Below are positions 5,409 through 18,380 of a stretch of DNA of 41,771 nucleotides, piece by piece. The number at the start of each line of letters is the position of its first letter. The stretch's first letter is position 1. The position numbers and the translations under genes are program-made. The DNA lies in assembly GCA_020692245.1 (NCBI GenBank), contig JAIMKT010000001.1, positions 37,695 through 79,465 of the forward strand, in the 5' to 3' direction. The stretch is from Microcoleus sp. GA_180221_E-2-1-MAG-45_12. Its GTDB lineage: Bacteria > Cyanobacteriota > Cyanobacteriia > Cyanobacteriales > JAAUUE01. The notes under the pieces are model-generated. The model was given only the letters and a program-made list of their open reading frames with translations. It did not search any database and was not told where the DNA came from.

Positions 5409-5762
5409 TCAACCATAAAAATCATCCACAATAGCTTGAATTTCATCAACTCCAATATCTGTTTGTTCTGATTTACTATAGATTGTTAACAATAAAATAC
5501 TGGTTTCTGACTCCACCAGATAAATCAAGCGATATCCAGCACTTTTACCTTTTTTGATATCACTATTCTTGGCTCTAACTTTATAGATATAAAGATCAGA
5601 ACCAAACCCAGCAAGGCGATCGCCCAACAATATTCTTTGCTCTAGCTGTTCAATAATAGGCTCAATATCCCTTCTGATAGATCGATATTTCTTTGATAAC
5701 CGATATAGCTCTTCCTCAAAATCCTCAGCAAATCTCAGAGAAACAGGTAGATTATTAGCCAT
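5409..5762 (-). CDS. RelE/ParE-superfamily toxin
   Basis: A 117-residue type II toxin candidate. The segment YKVRAKNSDIKKGKSAGYR (about residues 68-86) and the following LIYLVESETSILLLTIYSKSEQ are characteristic of a RelE/HigB-like subgroup common in cyanobacteria. RelE-family toxins are usually ribosome-dependent mRNA interferases and ParE-type ones gyrase poisons; which applies here is unknown. The ATG at 5762 overlaps the antitoxin stop by 8 bases, a typical translationally coupled pair. A TTG one codon upstream (5765) is the only alternative start nearby. Confidence 0.85.
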   Translation of the reverse strand: MANNLPVSLRFAEDFEEELYRLSKKYRSIRRDIEPIIEQLEQRILLGDRLAGFGSDLYIYKVRAKNSDIKKGKSAGYRLIYLVESETSILLLTIYSKSEQTDIGVDEIQAIVDDFYG

Positions 5763-6000
5763 CAATCCTACTCCATAGCTCAGAAATAGGTCTAGTTTTT
5801 CCAGCTTTTACTTCTGCTAAAGCCCGTCTTAGACTAGCCTTGATTTCTTCCACGGGAGTATCATCAGGATCGGTTTCTAGCTCATCAGCCACCAGCAGAA
5901 TAATCTTAACTCGACTATCTAAAATAAACTCTAGAGGCTCATCTAATAAAATCTGTCCATTTTCATCAACCCTGCCCATCACTTCAAAGGCTTGCATCAC
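5755..6000 (-). CDS. antitoxin partner of the RelE/ParE-type toxin
   Basis: A small acidic protein of 81 residues encoded just before, and overlapping, the toxin. The N-terminal half (VMGRVDENGQILLDEPLEF) looks like a beta-rich dimerisation and DNA-binding module, and the C-terminal half (EEIKASLRRALAEVKAGKT) is helical and likely wraps the toxin. Such antitoxins normally repress their own operon. The start is GTG 6000 or ATG 5997; AAGGAGAGG just upstream fits either. Context is the main evidence; the family itself I only recognise broadly. Confidence 0.78.
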   Translation of the reverse strand: MMQAFEVMGRVDENGQILLDEPLEFILDSRVKIILLVADELETDPDDTPVEEIKASLRRALAEVKAGKTRPISELWSRIDG

Positions 6001-6915: not shown

Positions 6916-6979
6916 ATCTAATAATCTGCTAATCTAGGGAGATAATTTGATTTCTAGATAATTGGTGATTTGACTCAGC

Positions 6980-7489
6980 ATGGAAGTAACAAAAGGCAAA
7001 ATAGATGGAGTGGTGGTGATTAAGCCGCCGACCATTTTTGAGGATTTTCGGGGAACCTACGTAGAAACCTACAACGAAGAAATCTATAGAGAAGCCGGGA
7101 TTACGGTAGATTTTGTCCAGGATGATATTTCTGTGTCTACCCAGCATGTCCTTCGGGGGATTCATGGCGACCAAGAAACGTGGAAACTCATCTCTTGCCT
7201 GTCAGGGAAATTCTATCTAGTGGTGGTCAATTGGGATAGTGCTTCACCTCAGTATGGACAATGGGAAGCCTTTACTTTATCTGACCAAAACCGCCTCCAA
7301 GTCTTGGTTCCCCCGAAGTTTGGCAATGGACATGTGGTACTGAGTGAGCAGGCAATTTTTCACTACAAACAATCTAGCTACTACAACCGAGCCGGACAGT
7401 TTACCCTGATCTGGAACGATCCCCAGTTAAAAATTTGGTGGCCGATCGAGCGCCCGATCGTGTCCCGGAGAGATGCGGGGGTAGAGTAA
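6980..7489 (+). CDS. RmlC-like dTDP-4-dehydrorhamnose 3,5-epimerase family protein
   Basis: A 169-residue cupin of the dTDP-sugar 3,5-epimerase superfamily. Family landmarks: FEDFRGTYVETYN (about 20-32), LRGIHGDQETWK (the catalytic HxxQ region), PPKFGNGHVVLSEQAIFHYK and IWNDPQLKIWWP with the conserved Asp. Canonical RmlC has AHGF where this protein has GNGH, and the strand usually reading DVAVDLR is VVVNWD. It is therefore more likely a nucleotide-sugar epimerase or isomerase variant than the rhamnose-pathway RmlC. No rmlA, rmlB or rmlD is near. The stop is 3 bases before the aminopeptidase start, so the two are probably co-transcribed. Confidence 0.85.
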   Translation: MEVTKGKIDGVVVIKPPTIFEDFRGTYVETYNEEIYREAGITVDFVQDDISVSTQHVLRGIHGDQETWKLISCLSGKFYLVVVNWDSASPQYGQWEAFTLSDQNRLQVLVPPKFGNGHVVLSEQAIFHYKQSSYYNRAGQFTLIWNDPQLKIWWPIERPIVSRRDAGVE

Positions 7490-13233: not shown

Positions 13234-16014
13234 ATGACGAACTCCCAACCTACTTTCCCAAAACCGCCTAGGGACTTGCCCCAGCGCCTCAATCCCTTTA
13301 ATCCTTACCACTACGTCCTGTTGACCTACTGGGTGTTTTGTCGCCCTAGTGCCTTCCATCACTATCTTTATCAAGGTTCGCCTCTGGTTTATCGATCGAG
13401 CGGCTTCCAGAGATTTTGGCGGGGTTGGGGAGTTCCTGCCTATCGGCGTTTATATTTAATGCTGCCGATCGCTCTAATCATTGCCTTGTTACTAGCTCTG
13501 GTGGGTCTGTGGTTCTATCGCCAGGGAATGACGACGGGGCATACTTCTTGGGTAAATAGTGTGGCAATTTCTGGGAATGGGCAGGTGATGGTGACAGCGG
13601 CGGGCGATCGCTTTGAACGGGTGCAGATTGTTTCCTCAGATTCGACTCTTAAGGTCTGGAACTTGGCGGAGGGCAGGGAAGTACACACTCTCCGGGGTCA
13701 TGAAACTAGTATTAATGCCGTAGATATCACTACCGATGGCAAAATAGCCGTGTCTGGCGGGCGCGATCGAACCCTGAAAGTCTGGGATCTCGCCGGGGGT
13801 AAAACTCTAAAAACCCTCACCGGGCATCGGGGCTGGATCTCAAATTTAGCCATTCTGCCCAATCAATCTCAGGTTGTTTCCGCCTCGGTAGATCGGACTC
13901 TGAAGCTCTGGAACCTAGACACTGGGGAAAATATTACGACTTTTAGCAGCCATGAACAACCTGTCCTAGCCTTAGCTCTAACTCAAGATGGTAGCCAGCT
14001 AGTTTCTGGCAGTGAAGACCAAACAGTAAAAATTTGGGATGTGTCACGAGGGGAATTACAGCAAACTTTACAGGGACATCAGGGCTGGGTGAATCAAGTG
14101 GTATTTACGCCCGATCGACTCAGTGAACGCCGAGTTATTTCTGCTGCTACTGATCAGCAAATCAAGATTTGGGATTTGTCCCTAGGGCAAGAGATAGCAA
14201 CCCTCACGGGACACACCAGTACCATCAATGCTTTGGCAGTTAGTGCCGATGGTAATTATTTAGTTTCTGCCAGTTCCGATCGCACCCTCAAAGTCTGGGA
14301 TTTACAACAAAATCAACTCCTGTATACTCTCACGGGACATCAAGGCTGGGTGACGGATTTAGCAATTACTCCCCAAGGCAAAATTATCTCTGGGTCGAGC
14401 GATCGCACGGCGAAAATCTGGGATCTCGCCACGGGCAAACTAGAACACACCCTCACAGGACACCAAAGCTGGGTAAGGACGGTGAGTGCTACCCCTGATG
14501 GTGAACGGGTAATTTCCACCGGATTTGAACGCTTCCCCAAACTCTGGGCGATGAATACGGGTACGGAAGTTCCCCTCGCAGCCTTGAGAAATCAGCAATT
14601 TTTGTTTAATTTGGTTTTTGCTAGTTGTGCTAGTGGGGCAGCCATGGCAGTGGTGGGGGCGATCGCCATTGTTCTTGCTCTGGGATTTGTTATCGCCGGG
14701 GGTGTCGGAGCGTTTGCGGCTAGTTTGTTAATTACTGTGGGAAATAGTTTGCTGTTGTCAGGGGCGTTGATTTTGCTCGATCGCTTCCGCAATAATCCCA
14801 GTTTTCGAGAGCAGTTCAGTGCCGAAGTTCTGGTGATTGTCCTTTACCTATTGCTGGGAACTATGCTGGGTTTGACCCTAGGGGCAGCGAGTGGCTTGAG
14901 TGGGCGGCGGGGCTTGAGCGTTTTTAGTAGTTTGCTGTTTACCCTGGTGATTGGTTTTGCTGGGGCGGTGGTCACTATTACCCTATTTACGGCGGCGATC
15001 AGTATCCGGGGACGGGTGTTGCCAGCCGTGAGTACCTTCCGTACCGTGGGGATTTTGTTTAATGGCATGGTGGCGGTAGGTGCTTTCCGGTTGCCAATTT
15101 ATCTAGGGGAATTTCTCTGGAGTTTGGCGACCTGGGGACGAGGCAAAGATCACGGGATTCTCTGGGATGAATTGTTAGTTTTTCCCTTACCCGGTGGCGG
15201 ATTGTTTCTGAAAAAACAGTTGCAACTTGATCCCCTCTTGGGCTTAGAAAAATGTCTAGCAGTGATGATCAATCCTTGGCAGCGATCGATCGCCCAACGC
15301 ATTTTATTCGACTATCTCGATCGCCACCCTTCCCCCCTCAAACTCCTCTACACTTGGCTAGAAAATCCCCTCTTAAATGAGTATTTTTATCCCCCCATTA
15401 ATTCCCCAGATTGGCAACTCCTTAGCAGCAAAAAGCAGGTTCTCTTGAGAGAATTGGGACATACTACCCACGAATCAGAAACGGGTTTAATTCGCTTGTT
15501 AACCAGTTGGCAAAGACGCTCCAAAGTTACTCCCCTCAGTCAACTCTGCGCCCTGCTTTATACCCTAGATATCCAAGATACGCAGAAATTAGATCAATTC
15601 CCAGAAATACACTCTCATTTATCCAATCTATCTACCTCGATTCTCCAAAGGGGAGGCTATGCCAATGAGCTTCTCTCCTATCCGGGCGGTCAAGAACTCA
15701 CCCAAGGCTTCCATCTCCTCGGAGAATTTCTCAGCTATACCACCCTAGAAGATTTCCAGCGTCCTACTTTGCCAGAGATAACCAATTCCCTAGAGCTAGA
15801 TTTCCTCGATCGCCTCCAGCAACTACTCCAGATCAAAACTAAAATTGCTACCCTCACTAATCCTCCAAATTCCCCTCCGGCTCCACTCTCCATTATTCAA
15901 GCCTTGCAAACCCTGCAATCACAACCCATCACCACTTCCGAAGCCCAACTCCTAGCTCAAGTTATCCAACAATGGCAGGAAATCCTTCTATCTCAACTCA
16001 CGAAGCTCGGTTAG
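13234..16014 (+). CDS. WD40 beta-propeller protein embedded between membrane segments
   Basis: 926 residues. A cytosolic N-terminus precedes a transmembrane helix (about 73-95). Eight WD40 repeats follow (about 101-445), each with a GH dipeptide and a closing LKVWDL/IKIWDL-type strand. Next comes a block of four to six hydrophobic helices (about 455-650) rich in Gly and Ala. The C-terminal 270 residues are soluble and helical without a domain I recognise. WD40 propellers act as scaffolds for protein complexes; the role here is unknown. The reading frame is intact and HIP1 sites run through it, so it is native to the genome. The gene is divergent from lgt. Confidence 0.88.
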   Translation: MTNSQPTFPKPPRDLPQRLNPFNPYHYVLLTYWVFCRPSAFHHYLYQGSPLVYRSSGFQRFWRGWGVPAYRRLYLMLPIALIIALLLALVGLWFYRQGMTTGHTSWVNSVAISGNGQVMVTAAGDRFERVQIVSSDSTLKVWNLAEGREVHTLRGHETSINAVDITTDGKIAVSGGRDRTLKVWDLAGGKTLKTLTGHRGWISNLAILPNQSQVVSASVDRTLKLWNLDTGENITTFSSHEQPVLALALTQDGSQLVSGSEDQTVKIWDVSRGELQQTLQGHQGWVNQVVFTPDRLSERRVISAATDQQIKIWDLSLGQEIATLTGHTSTINALAVSADGNYLVSASSDRTLKVWDLQQNQLLYTLTGHQGWVTDLAITPQGKIISGSSDRTAKIWDLATGKLEHTLTGHQSWVRTVSATPDGERVISTGFERFPKLWAMNTGTEVPLAALRNQQFLFNLVFASCASGAAMAVVGAIAIVLALGFVIAGGVGAFAASLLITVGNSLLLSGALILLDRFRNNPSFREQFSAEVLVIVLYLLLGTMLGLTLGAASGLSGRRGLSVFSSLLFTLVIGFAGAVVTITLFTAAISIRGRVLPAVSTFRTVGILFNGMVAVGAFRLPIYLGEFLWSLATWGRGKDHGILWDELLVFPLPGGGLFLKKQLQLDPLLGLEKCLAVMINPWQRSIAQRILFDYLDRHPSPLKLLYTWLENPLLNEYFYPPINSPDWQLLSSKKQVLLRELGHTTHESETGLIRLLTSWQRRSKVTPLSQLCALLYTLDIQDTQKLDQFPEIHSHLSNLSTSILQRGGYANELLSYPGGQELTQGFHLLGEFLSYTTLEDFQRPTLPEITNSLELDFLDRLQQLLQIKTKIATLTNPPNSPPAPLSIIQALQTLQSQPITTSEAQLLAQVIQQWQEILLSQLTKLG

Positions 16015-16157
16015 AGAGGCAGGATAATTTTGGGCAGAGTAACAGGCTAGATTTCTCGATCGAGTGGCAAAATAGAAGGACAACCCTACGGAGTGGGTGG
16101 ATTATTGAGCATAATTCGGAAATTCCTAAGTTAACAACCTGCTATCCTTTGTAGCTA

Positions 16158-16421
16158 TTGGAGGTAAGAAAGATAATAAATAATACAGCTAAATTACTAG
16201 GTGTAGTGGCATTAATTGTTGATCTTTCTCAGTACAATCTATGGCGAGGATATGTAGATACAGTGGCAGAGATGTTGGCAAATGGAGCAGCATTGGAAGT
16301 TAAGTTTAGCGATCATTCTGGACGCACCTACGAGTCTTTGATATTAAAACTATAGCAAGTAATAATGGTATTACATTTTCAGCCAGCACATCCTGATGCA
16401 AAGATTGAAATAATTAAAGTA
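16158..16421 (+). pseudogene. degenerate small gene (lost start, in-frame amber codon)
   Basis: A frame from 16158 encodes about 65 residues ending in DHSGRTYESLILKL and an amber stop at 16353-16355. The same frame continues for 21 more codons (ending FQPAHPDAKIEIIKV) to TAA at about 16419. A good Shine-Dalgarno, TTGGAGGTAAG, starts at 16158, but the codon at the expected spacing is ATA (16173), not ATG. TTG 16158 overlaps the Shine-Dalgarno itself. The simplest reading is a decayed gene of about 80 codons. The family is not recognised. It could still be a short real gene starting at TTG. Confidence 0.4.
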
Positions 16422-16510
16422 TAAGATAGTTACAGATAATTGATTGAAATAAATCATACAGATTGTCATGATAGATTTTGTATATTAATCTACTAGTTAA
16501 AGCTTCTAAT

Positions 16511-17443
16511 ATGTGTAGCCTACAAAGATTTTATTTTGAGACTTCTGCATTGAATGAGTTTCAAAGTCGTTATAGTATACAAGATGCTATCGCAACTAAG
16601 GTGCTTCAGAACACAAAAGGTCGAGGTTTTTATATTTCACCAGTTGTATTATGGGAGATCCTTCTTACTTCTGATGAAACTAAGCGGGAATCATTAATAC
16701 ATTTCTCTCAACATCTATTTGAGCCAGATTTACTTCCGTCACCAGAGGAACTAATAATTCGATATATTAAGTCGGGATTTCCAACTGTAGAACCTGAGTA
16801 TCCATTAGTGTCTACCGGATTATTTGCGGTTGCTTGGCGAGACATTTGTGAAATTAAAGGAAAGACACTCAAATTTGATTCCTCCATAGTAGAGAAGACA
16901 TCCATATTACGCAAGATTAGCCGTCTTTTACATGAGTTCAACAAATCCAATACCATTAATATCCCCGCGGCTGATCTTCAAGTGTCCGTACAACAAATCC
17001 TTGATGAATATGCTCTTATTCCAACTAATTATTCTGATGATATTGAAATGATTCGCCATTTTCGATTAGTTACATTTTTTATCATATTGATTATGTGCGC
17101 AGGCATATCTATTGAGGGAGATTTAATAAATAAGTTTTGGGAACAGCAAGGTATATATAGTATACAAGAACGTATTGAAATTACTTTCTCTCGCTTTCCT
17201 CAACTATTATTTCGTGGGCCGTTTAATCACATTGCCTATATGACTCATTATCAAAGTGTAGGAAAATTTCCACGTGGTGTTTACTTTGATAGTATGCACA
17301 CAGTCTACTCTATTTATGCTGATCATCTGTTAACTGCTGATAAGCATTTTTGTACCTTCCGAGAAAACCTCAAAGATTTATTTCCTTATGTTTGTAACAT
17401 TCACCACCTTGATGAAATTAAATTCTTCTCTGATTCTCCATAA
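16511..17443 (+). CDS. PIN-like nuclease candidate with a large helical insertion
   Basis: 310 residues from ATG 16511 (an upstream TTG at 16478 is the alternative; neither has a strong ribosome-binding site). The N-terminus RFYFETSALNEF matches the first PIN strand, but with Glu where Asp is usual. SPVVLWEILL supplies the second acidic position. The C-terminus FDSMHTVYSIYADHLLTADKHF matches the last PIN motifs, including the TxD. Between them lie about 170 mostly helical residues, far more than in a VapC toxin of about 130 residues. PIN domains are Mg2+-dependent RNases. No antitoxin is adjacent, except possibly the decayed gene upstream. The gene has no CGATCG sites, unlike its surroundings, suggesting transfer. 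Confidence 0.65.
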   Translation: MCSLQRFYFETSALNEFQSRYSIQDAIATKVLQNTKGRGFYISPVVLWEILLTSDETKRESLIHFSQHLFEPDLLPSPEELIIRYIKSGFPTVEPEYPLVSTGLFAVAWRDICEIKGKTLKFDSSIVEKTSILRKISRLLHEFNKSNTINIPAADLQVSVQQILDEYALIPTNYSDDIEMIRHFRLVTFFIILIMCAGISIEGDLINKFWEQQGIYSIQERIEITFSRFPQLLFRGPFNHIAYMTHYQSVGKFPRGVYFDSMHTVYSIYADHLLTADKHFCTFRENLKDLFPYVCNIHHLDEIKFFSDSP

Positions 17444-17618
17444 ACTCATTGATTAAAAGTTCTTTCCTAATTTCTCGAATATAAGGATAAGGCTTCCCGC
17501 TATGCTTACCCGGTTTGTTCGTGATTCGTTCGTGACAACTACAAGAGACTATAAATCTGGCTCGATCTCTTTTATTTTCTTGGGCAGTTACAATTGAGGG
17601 AATTACTGATTGAGAACT

Positions 17619-17786
17619 ATGAATTCTGCTTATTCCATAATTGCCGCTGAATCTACCCTTACGTTACCTAGATGGCAACCCGCCACTTGGGGAGATTATC
17701 TTCAGCACTGCGATCGAGCCGCTCCAGAAAGAGCCAGAATATTTTTCAATCAAGGGTATTTATTTATTGAGATGGGAACAGATTAG
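17619..17786 (+). pseudogene. Uma2-family endonuclease, N-terminal remnant
   Basis: An ATG frame of 55 codons too short to be picked up as a full gene. It contains WQPATWGDYLQHCD, then PERARIFFNQGYLFIEMG, which match the N-terminal portion of cyanobacterial Uma2 (DUF820, restriction-endonuclease-like) proteins of about 190-230 residues. After EMGTD it hits TAG and runs into the 3' end of the convergent gene at 17790. The catalytic Asp and Glu/Lys residues of the fold would lie in the missing part, so it is not functional as a nuclease. Confidence 0.7.
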
Positions 17787-17789
17787 CTG

Positions 17790-18380
17790 TCACGATCGAG
17801 GTAAATTACGTATTCTCCATCCCGATTCCCTGCCTACTTTACCCGTCTTCAAAAATTCAAAATTTGCCCAGATAAATACCTCGCCGTGGGGAGTGGTTCC
17901 GGTTAATTCCCGTACATTGCTGCTGGAAATAATCCACTGGTGTTCCACTGCATCTTCTAGGGCGTGGTAATTGTGGAGGAGATCCCGCCGGGGAGTGGTA
18001 GCTTGAGAGATCGCCTTGATCAGTTCGCCGAGGGGATTTTCTGGTGGGGCAGAATTATTGTTAGTTGGTTTACTGGTGGGGACGATCGAGGTCTTGAGGA
18101 CTCTAGTTTCGATAATCTCTTCAGCCGGGGATATTTCTGGGGTTTCTAAGGAGTCTCCGTTGGGTTGCGAGGCAGGCAACTTAGAAAATTCTGCTAGGGA
18201 GTTTCCTGATTCTAGATGTTCATGGAGTTGATACATCAGGATCATTTGCTCTTGGGAAAATTTCCCAGCGATCGCCGGAACTAGGTTCAGAGCTTTTGCC
18301 AACTTGGTAACTTGCTGCCGTGAAGACAAACCAAACAGCTTGCGTAGATCGTCGATCGAGTAGGGCGGCATAGGGTTCAA
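17790..18380 (-). CDS. conserved cyanobacterial hypothetical protein
   Basis: 196 residues, function not recognised. The first 60 residues (YSIDDLRKLFGLSSRQQVTKLAKAL) resemble a helix-turn-helix or SAM-like helical domain. A low-complexity Ser/Pro/Glu/Asn linker (about 65-110) follows. The last 60 residues form a compact Trp-containing module with WIISSSNVRELTG, FIWANFEFLKTGKVGRESGW. It is 58 bases downstream of the metallophosphoesterase and may be in its transcript. HIP1-type sites are present, so it looks native. Confidence 0.75.
   Translation of the reverse strand: MNPMPPYSIDDLRKLFGLSSRQQVTKLAKALNLVPAIAGKFSQEQMILMYQLHEHLESGNSLAEFSKLPASQPNGDSLETPEISPAEEIIETRVLKTSIVPTSKPTNNNSAPPENPLGELIKAISQATTPRRDLLHNYHALEDAVEHQWIISSSNVRELTGTTPHGEVFIWANFEFLKTGKVGRESGWRIRNLPRS

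Follow-up and report, generated by a model that had tools for sequence, protein, structure and literature searches.

PIN-domain nucleases are best known here through the VapC-type toxins (PF01850), proteins of about 130-150 amino acids (aa), and the acidic residues of the PIN active site usually form the set D, E, D, D. Another likely solo toxin, abundant in cyanobacteria, is the Uma2 family (PF05685, COG4636), as described in PMC2701414. Foreign genes of Synechococcus elongatus have been sought, according to PMC3025956, by combining poverty in HIP1 sites (CGATCG) with codon usage and GC content. The locus described here touches on each of these. It lies between a wd40 gene and a helix-turn-helix (HTH)-like gene in Microcoleus sp. 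GA_180221_E-2-1-MAG-45_12, within a stretch of 41,771 nucleotides (the window; contig JAIMKT010000001.1, positions 37,695 to 79,465) taken from a genome (G000) of 4.2 Mb across 132 contigs. From 16511 to 17443 on the plus strand of the window it carries a lone, intact gene for a PIN-like protein of 310 aa, with an uninterrupted frame. The explanation that we favour, with moderate confidence, is that the stretch is made up of unrelated leftovers at a site prone to rearrangement, and that the PIN-like gene was gained alone and would encode a solo RNase.

Distribution and setting of the PIN-like gene

The PIN-like gene is exceptionally rare in the samples searched, and the copy in the window is the only one found in its own genome. 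Matches were obtained in two of the 386 genomes of a phylum sample (own genome counted) and, among 388 genomes of the class, in the own genome only. Further samples gave matches in 1/60, 2/335 and, at E up to 0.01, 5/388 genomes; all these samples overlap one another and contain either the own genome or G114. Besides the window's own, the significant matches are confined to two genomes. Candidatus Gastranaerophilus phascolarctosicola (G114; locus L007) carries the sole intact relative found, a protein of 302 aa with 32-33% identity (E=3.4e-39), and another genome of the same class (G681) carries a broken copy (E=2.8e-19). The four weak extra matches of the 5/388 sample are L003, L004, L005 and L006. 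L003 lies inside a long open reading frame (ORF) that resembles a sugar epimerase/reductase (named by eye). No relatives were found in plasmids or phages, none were confirmed in viral contigs and none were detected among PDB sequences by sequence search; a match of the two-row profile to a ribosomal protein in the PDB (E=0.073) was taken as chance. Wider relatives may exist, because other phyla were covered by two pattern-based scans of genome contigs only, the first of which gave no locus and the second one.

In Candidatus Gastranaerophilus, the relative stands alone between a tRNA-Leu gene and a gene that we take to be dnaN. All six other genomes of this genus lack a significant copy in the dnaN flanks compared. 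In three of the six (G107, G065 and G197) the comparison extends beyond the tRNA: in G107, 97 bp separate the tRNA-Leu flank from the dnaN-side flank, versus 1278 bp in the carrier, and the interval holds an ORF presumed to be glycosyltransferase-like in G065 and an ORF of 94 aa in G197. These comparisons support gain or loss of the PIN-like gene at a variable site, and the gene has probably moved between distant bacteria. The variable interval (L007:5612-7325) adjoins a conserved stretch of about 250 bp (L007 ~6969-7219) without a listed ORF. No tRNA gene was found in the window.

Composition agrees with acquisition. The PIN-like gene has a GC content at third codon positions (GC3) of 0.265 and a codon index of 0.709, each the second lowest among the 31 genes of the window, and the patchy distribution, the low GC3 and the deviant codon usage together support acquisition of the gene. 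Composition alone is no proof of transfer, since another gene of the window has a GC3 of 0.244 and another a codon index of 0.660, both lower; this is a point against the favoured explanation.

No partner was recognised. Between the DUF4926 pseudogene described below and position 16511 there is no same-strand ORF of at least 40 aa, and inspection by eye of the ORFs listed for loci L002 and L007 showed no partner gene. Nor did the ORFs listed near the L007 gene include, by eye, any that was DUF4926-, DUF6883- or Uma2-like. In G681, a frame adjoining the broken copy matches the GmrSD_N restriction domain slightly below the cut-off. The region concerned (L009:1237-3312) holds the broken PIN-like copy, this GmrSD_N-like fragment and, downstream, a nucleoside triphosphatase-like reading frame that is presumably KAP-like; it is possibly a defence-gene graveyard.

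The PIN fold and the candidate active site

Residues E10, E49, D260 and D277 are identical in both intact sequences, in an order that resembles that of PIN domains as assigned by eye, and counterparts of D260 and D277 were also read by eye in the broken G681 fragment. Like VapC-type PIN toxins, the protein shows the motif order hydrophobic-E/D-T-S, then E, then D, then T-x-D (by eye). The second and third acidic positions are 211 residues apart, where L092, a PIN protein, has a spacing of 57 (by-eye count), so that about 150 extra residues, mostly helical, lie between them. In the AlphaFold2 model of the relative, block means range from 56 to 76 over residues 11-70, and the N-terminal order is βααβαα, an arrangement that aligns with VapC and Utp23/24 structures. 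When this model was re-aligned against PDB chains ranked by Foldseek, the first 18 rows out of 18 were VapBC (3), Utp23 (1), Utp24 (1) and chains of the 90S/small-subunit (SSU) processome (13), with Z scores of 4.2-5.1 over 64-99 residues; the 13 processome chains are presumably PIN subunits. The best PIN match (Z 5.1, root mean square deviation 2.7 over 64 residues) falls in the N-terminal ~75 residues of the relative's model. On these models, the N-terminal part alone appears to resemble PIN domains, and a PIN core with a long insert is likely.

The PIN assignment itself is weak, and several results weigh against it. No Pfam or NCBIfam family was returned for the 310-aa protein at E up to 1, and the first acidic position is occupied by E rather than D. 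Compared profile to profile with 15 PIN proteins of the own genome, the whole protein had a probability of 29%, or of 27% with its middle removed; the N-terminal part reached 50%, in register over the second motif but still weak, and the C-terminal part 1%. The AlphaFold2 models (from two sequences) have a mean predicted local distance difference test score (pLDDT) of only 37.5 and 39.9, the C-terminal half being modelled only at low confidence. Foldseek returned a best E of 0.34 and nothing at E up to 0.001. In the re-alignment, unrelated chains appear from rank 19 on (phage portal, Z 4.0), and a Z near 5 is within the procedure's own warning range. Searches against PHROGs gave only weak matches, at E=0.23 with the window protein and at E=0.015 and 0.23 with its L007 relative, and the best Pfam value of the relative was E=0.09. 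Unlike VapC-type toxins, the window protein is 310 aa long, with its extra residues separating the second acidic position from the third, has E in place of the first D, lies beside no antitoxin and gives no match to PF01850. Matches to PF01850 do occur at 24 other places of the own genome, three of them containing stops.

An intact frame does not by itself establish a working nuclease. The gene could be non-functional, its ORF having yet to decay, or its product could be a non-nuclease, for example a PIN-superfamily protein that is non-catalytic and serves for binding; we regard this as rather unlikely. The glutamate at the first acidic position and the lack of family matches would fit such a protein, as would the rarity of the gene, the decay of its neighbours and the broken copy in G681. 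The 310 codons free of stops amid decay argue against it, as do the four acidic residues kept identical in two intact copies despite 32% identity and the counterparts of D260 and D277, seen by eye, in the broken fragment. Since the frame of the PIN-like gene is open and its neighbours are broken, the gene probably still works, although a recent arrival would look the same.

According to that explanation, the PIN-like gene would have been gained horizontally as a single gene, and its product would fold as a PIN-type nuclease in which a half carrying E10 and E49 and a half carrying D260 and D277 are split by the large helical insert. The protein is predicted to act as a metal-dependent RNase, its most likely role being that of a solo toxin or an abortive-defence effector for which no adjacent antitoxin would be needed; either the insert or an unlinked factor may keep it inactive. 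Fold, catalysis, toxicity and such control are all putative here.

Remnants and flanking genes

The PIN-like gene is surrounded by the following features:

13234..16014, plus strand: WD40-repeat protein gene, 926 aa, left flank (Pfam WD40 match)
15995..16154, plus strand: 5'-truncated DUF6883 gene (PF21814), C-terminal half (profile match and DNA alignment to L054)
16155..16424, plus strand: DUF4926 pseudogene (PF16277) lacking its start codon and interrupted by an in-frame TAG at 16353-16355, past which homologous sequence continues
17418..17663, minus strand: stop-to-stop open stretch of 81 codons, possibly meaningless, not listed as an ORF starting with ATG, GTG or TTG
17619..17786, plus strand: probable N-terminal remnant of a Uma2-family gene, 55 aa (pairwise similarity)
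17790..18380, minus strand: HTH-like gene, 196 aa, right flank (label from the earlier note; no Pfam match)

The region from 15995 to 16424 can be recognised as what is left of a pair of genes common in cyanobacteria, and it is attached to the wd40 gene's 3' end. The DUF6883 remnant matches PF21814 above the Pfam cut-off (E=2.7e-10, 40.9 bits against 27) and covers profile positions 56-109 of 110, the domain thus being incomplete with its first half missing. The small frame at 16158-16355 (65 aa) matches PF16277 with E=7.3e-13 and 48.2 bits against a cut-off of 29.1; a profile search of the genome for DUF4926 reported the same place independently, as profile positions 1-55 of 57 with one TAG inside. 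Its read-through translation aligns with L063 over residues 2-87 at 67%. At the DNA level, identity to L054, which comes from a cyanobacterial genome of the same order, is 74% from 15995 to 16411; in L054 both the DUF6883 and DUF4926 frames are open over the aligned stretch, and the DUF4926 start codon, absent from the window, is present.

Of 30 DUF4926 loci fetched, 24 were scanned, and in at least 13 of these 24 a DUF6883 gene comes directly before DUF4926; a Stanieria plasmid also carries the pair with this annotation. The own genome has 6 DUF4926 matches. A literature search for DUF6883 found no paper under that name. The window keeps remnants of both members of the pair in their usual order; unlike the intact pair, its DUF6883 is without the first half and its DUF4926 is without a start and has an in-frame stop. 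Relatives of the WD40 protein match it no further than residue 329 of the 337-residue C-terminal query, at about 15987, and DNA of DUF6883 type begins at 15995, which places the junction at about 15988-15995. The sequence thus shows that a deletion or recombination fused the WD40 gene, at its 3' end, with the latter half of a DUF6883 gene, and the last codons and the stop of the WD40 frame are now read from DUF6883-derived DNA.

At the other end, the 55-aa stub is similar to the Uma2 locus L126 (45% over 31 aa; E=4e-4 among the fetched loci only) and has three weak plasmid matches, one of them annotated as Uma2 (E=0.1). A search against Pfam, Uma2 (PF05685) included, gave no match. The stub thus resembles Uma2 only weakly, over an N-terminal stretch, and differs from it in amounting to about a quarter of a Uma2 protein, with the rest of the domain absent and the similarity below Pfam detection. 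The own genome contains 63 Uma2 matches, one of which contains stops. The minus-strand stretch at 17418-17663 had no Pfam family, no plasmid match and no relative found. Promoter-like sites were not above those of shuffled sequences, no terminator was found, and the repeats were short. Elsewhere in the window (5409-5765, minus strand) lies a 118-aa protein that we take to be RelE-type toxin-like.

Conservation of the interval was followed from both of its ends by separate searches, not as one whole. In the same-genus genome G001 (8.6 kb compared), the HTH-like gene is 91% identical, and the match to the window runs from 17805 rightwards only, with unrelated genes on the other side. The break in similarity is sharp (window 17805, L084:6244) and falls within the HTH-like gene, close to its 3' end; beyond it, G001 has overlapping permease-like frames that look broken by eye. 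No wd40 match was found in G001, which is no proof of absence because this genome is 87% complete. Matches to the wd40 C-terminus were found in 4/25 genomes and to the HTH-like gene in 9/40, own genome included in both, and the wd40 carriers G009, G015 and G023 are not among the nine HTH-like carriers. The comparison with relatives that the earlier note had suggested thus finds the HTH-like side kept and the interval, judging by the alignment, not conserved from 17805 leftwards in the single same-genus genome examined.

The earlier note had described a degenerate small gene, a 310-residue frame and a short truncated frame. All three exist (16158-16355, 16511-17443 and 17619-17786), to which must be added the DUF6883 remnant at 15995-16154, which had been overlooked, and the fact that the stretch starts inside the last wd40 codons. 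Decay was rightly seen, in view of the half-deleted DUF6883 gene, the DUF4926 gene with its lost start and in-frame stop, and the probable Uma2 stub. What is not supported is that these pieces belonged to a single acquired defence or toxin-antitoxin locus in which the nuclease survives and DUF4926, or DUF6883-DUF4926, was its partner. In favour of such a locus, the broken genes share a strand with the PIN-like gene and lie immediately upstream of it, and GC is low across the stretch. The DUF6883-DUF4926 pair, however, is self-standing elsewhere without a PIN-like gene, and the L007 relative stands alone, with no such partner by eye among the ORFs listed. The check with PADLOC (PADLOC-DB 2.0.0) returned no family for any of five proteins, namely the three window frames (the 310-aa protein among them), the DUF6883 remnant and the L007 relative. 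Furthermore, the remnant is 74% identical to DNA of a cyanobacterium of the same order while the relatives found for the PIN-like gene belong to another class of the phylum, and their histories therefore differ. Because its parts occur independently, a single joint locus is rejected as highly improbable.

HIP1 sites, GC content and what the locus means

CGATCG is strongly over-represented in the window (137 observed, 5.2 expected), and its reported absence from about 16060 to 17700 is genuine: no site occurs from 16063 to 17710, between bounding sites at 16057-16062, inside the DUF6883 remnant, and 17711-17716. The gap of 1654 bp from start to start is the largest of the window, the second largest being 1083. 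That this length is unusual was not confirmed. Random placement of 137 sites gave a largest gap of at least 1654 bp in 43% of 20,000 trials, and 10 of 1137 gaps are as long in a 389-kb sample of the own genome (contigs C16 and C89 plus the initial 100 kb of C86), the window's own gap being among the 10. Four of the 31 genes in the window have no CGATCG, and the PIN-like gene is the longest of these. The gap is within ordinary variation, and as a sole sign of foreign origin it is rejected in view of the random placement and of the genome's own gap lengths. Moreover, the DUF6883-DUF4926 remnant is ordinary cyanobacterial DNA, so that missing HIP1 sites there are no mark of foreignness. The longest gap in the 389 kb, of 4033 bp with a GC of 0.38 (G000:C86:86325-90358), is a better candidate for a HIP1-poor island, although runs of N are possible there.

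Low GC is the better signal of oddity. The AT-richness noted earlier is borne out by a GC of 0.346 over the 1.4 kb from 16063 to 17462, which falls in the lowest 0.8% of 3852 windows from the 389 kb; among the 808 sliding 1.4-kb windows of the stretch itself, just one is equally low, and it overlaps 16063-17462. Like the HIP1-poor foreign genes treated in PMC3025956, the PIN-like gene combines lack of HIP1, low GC and unusual codon usage; unlike them, it lies in a HIP1 gap that is within the variation of its genome and consists in part of ordinary cyanobacterial DNA. The first ~430 bp are an ordinary cyanobacterial pair with 74% DNA identity to L054.

It could also be held that nothing here calls for explanation, and that ordinary variation in HIP1 and GC, in a genome rich in Uma2 and PIN genes, surrounds an unremarkable accessory gene. 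The usual length of the gap favours this, and with 63 Uma2 and 24 PF01850 matches in the own genome such neighbours need no special explanation. The remnants of DUF6883 and DUF4926 are clear, however, and the PIN-like gene was found in the own genome only among the 388 of its class; we consider this alternative possible but on the whole doubtful.

The favoured explanation, a composite with a PIN-like gene gained alone, splits what looked like an island into separate histories, for the most part ordinary decay, with one rare and possibly interesting gene in its midst. For cyanobacterial genomes in general, a HIP1-free gap is weak evidence for foreign DNA unless it is compared with the genome's own distribution of gaps. 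A more speculative extension, which we put forward very tentatively, is that the gene represents an undescribed family of lone PIN-type nucleases, mobile as single genes, with E in the first position and a long helical insert that would sense a trigger such as infection and so replace an antitoxin, passed between photosynthetic cyanobacteria and gut Gastranaerophilales. If the protein is indeed a self-contained toxin or defence nuclease, it would constitute a compact one-gene system that is missing from the family libraries searched.

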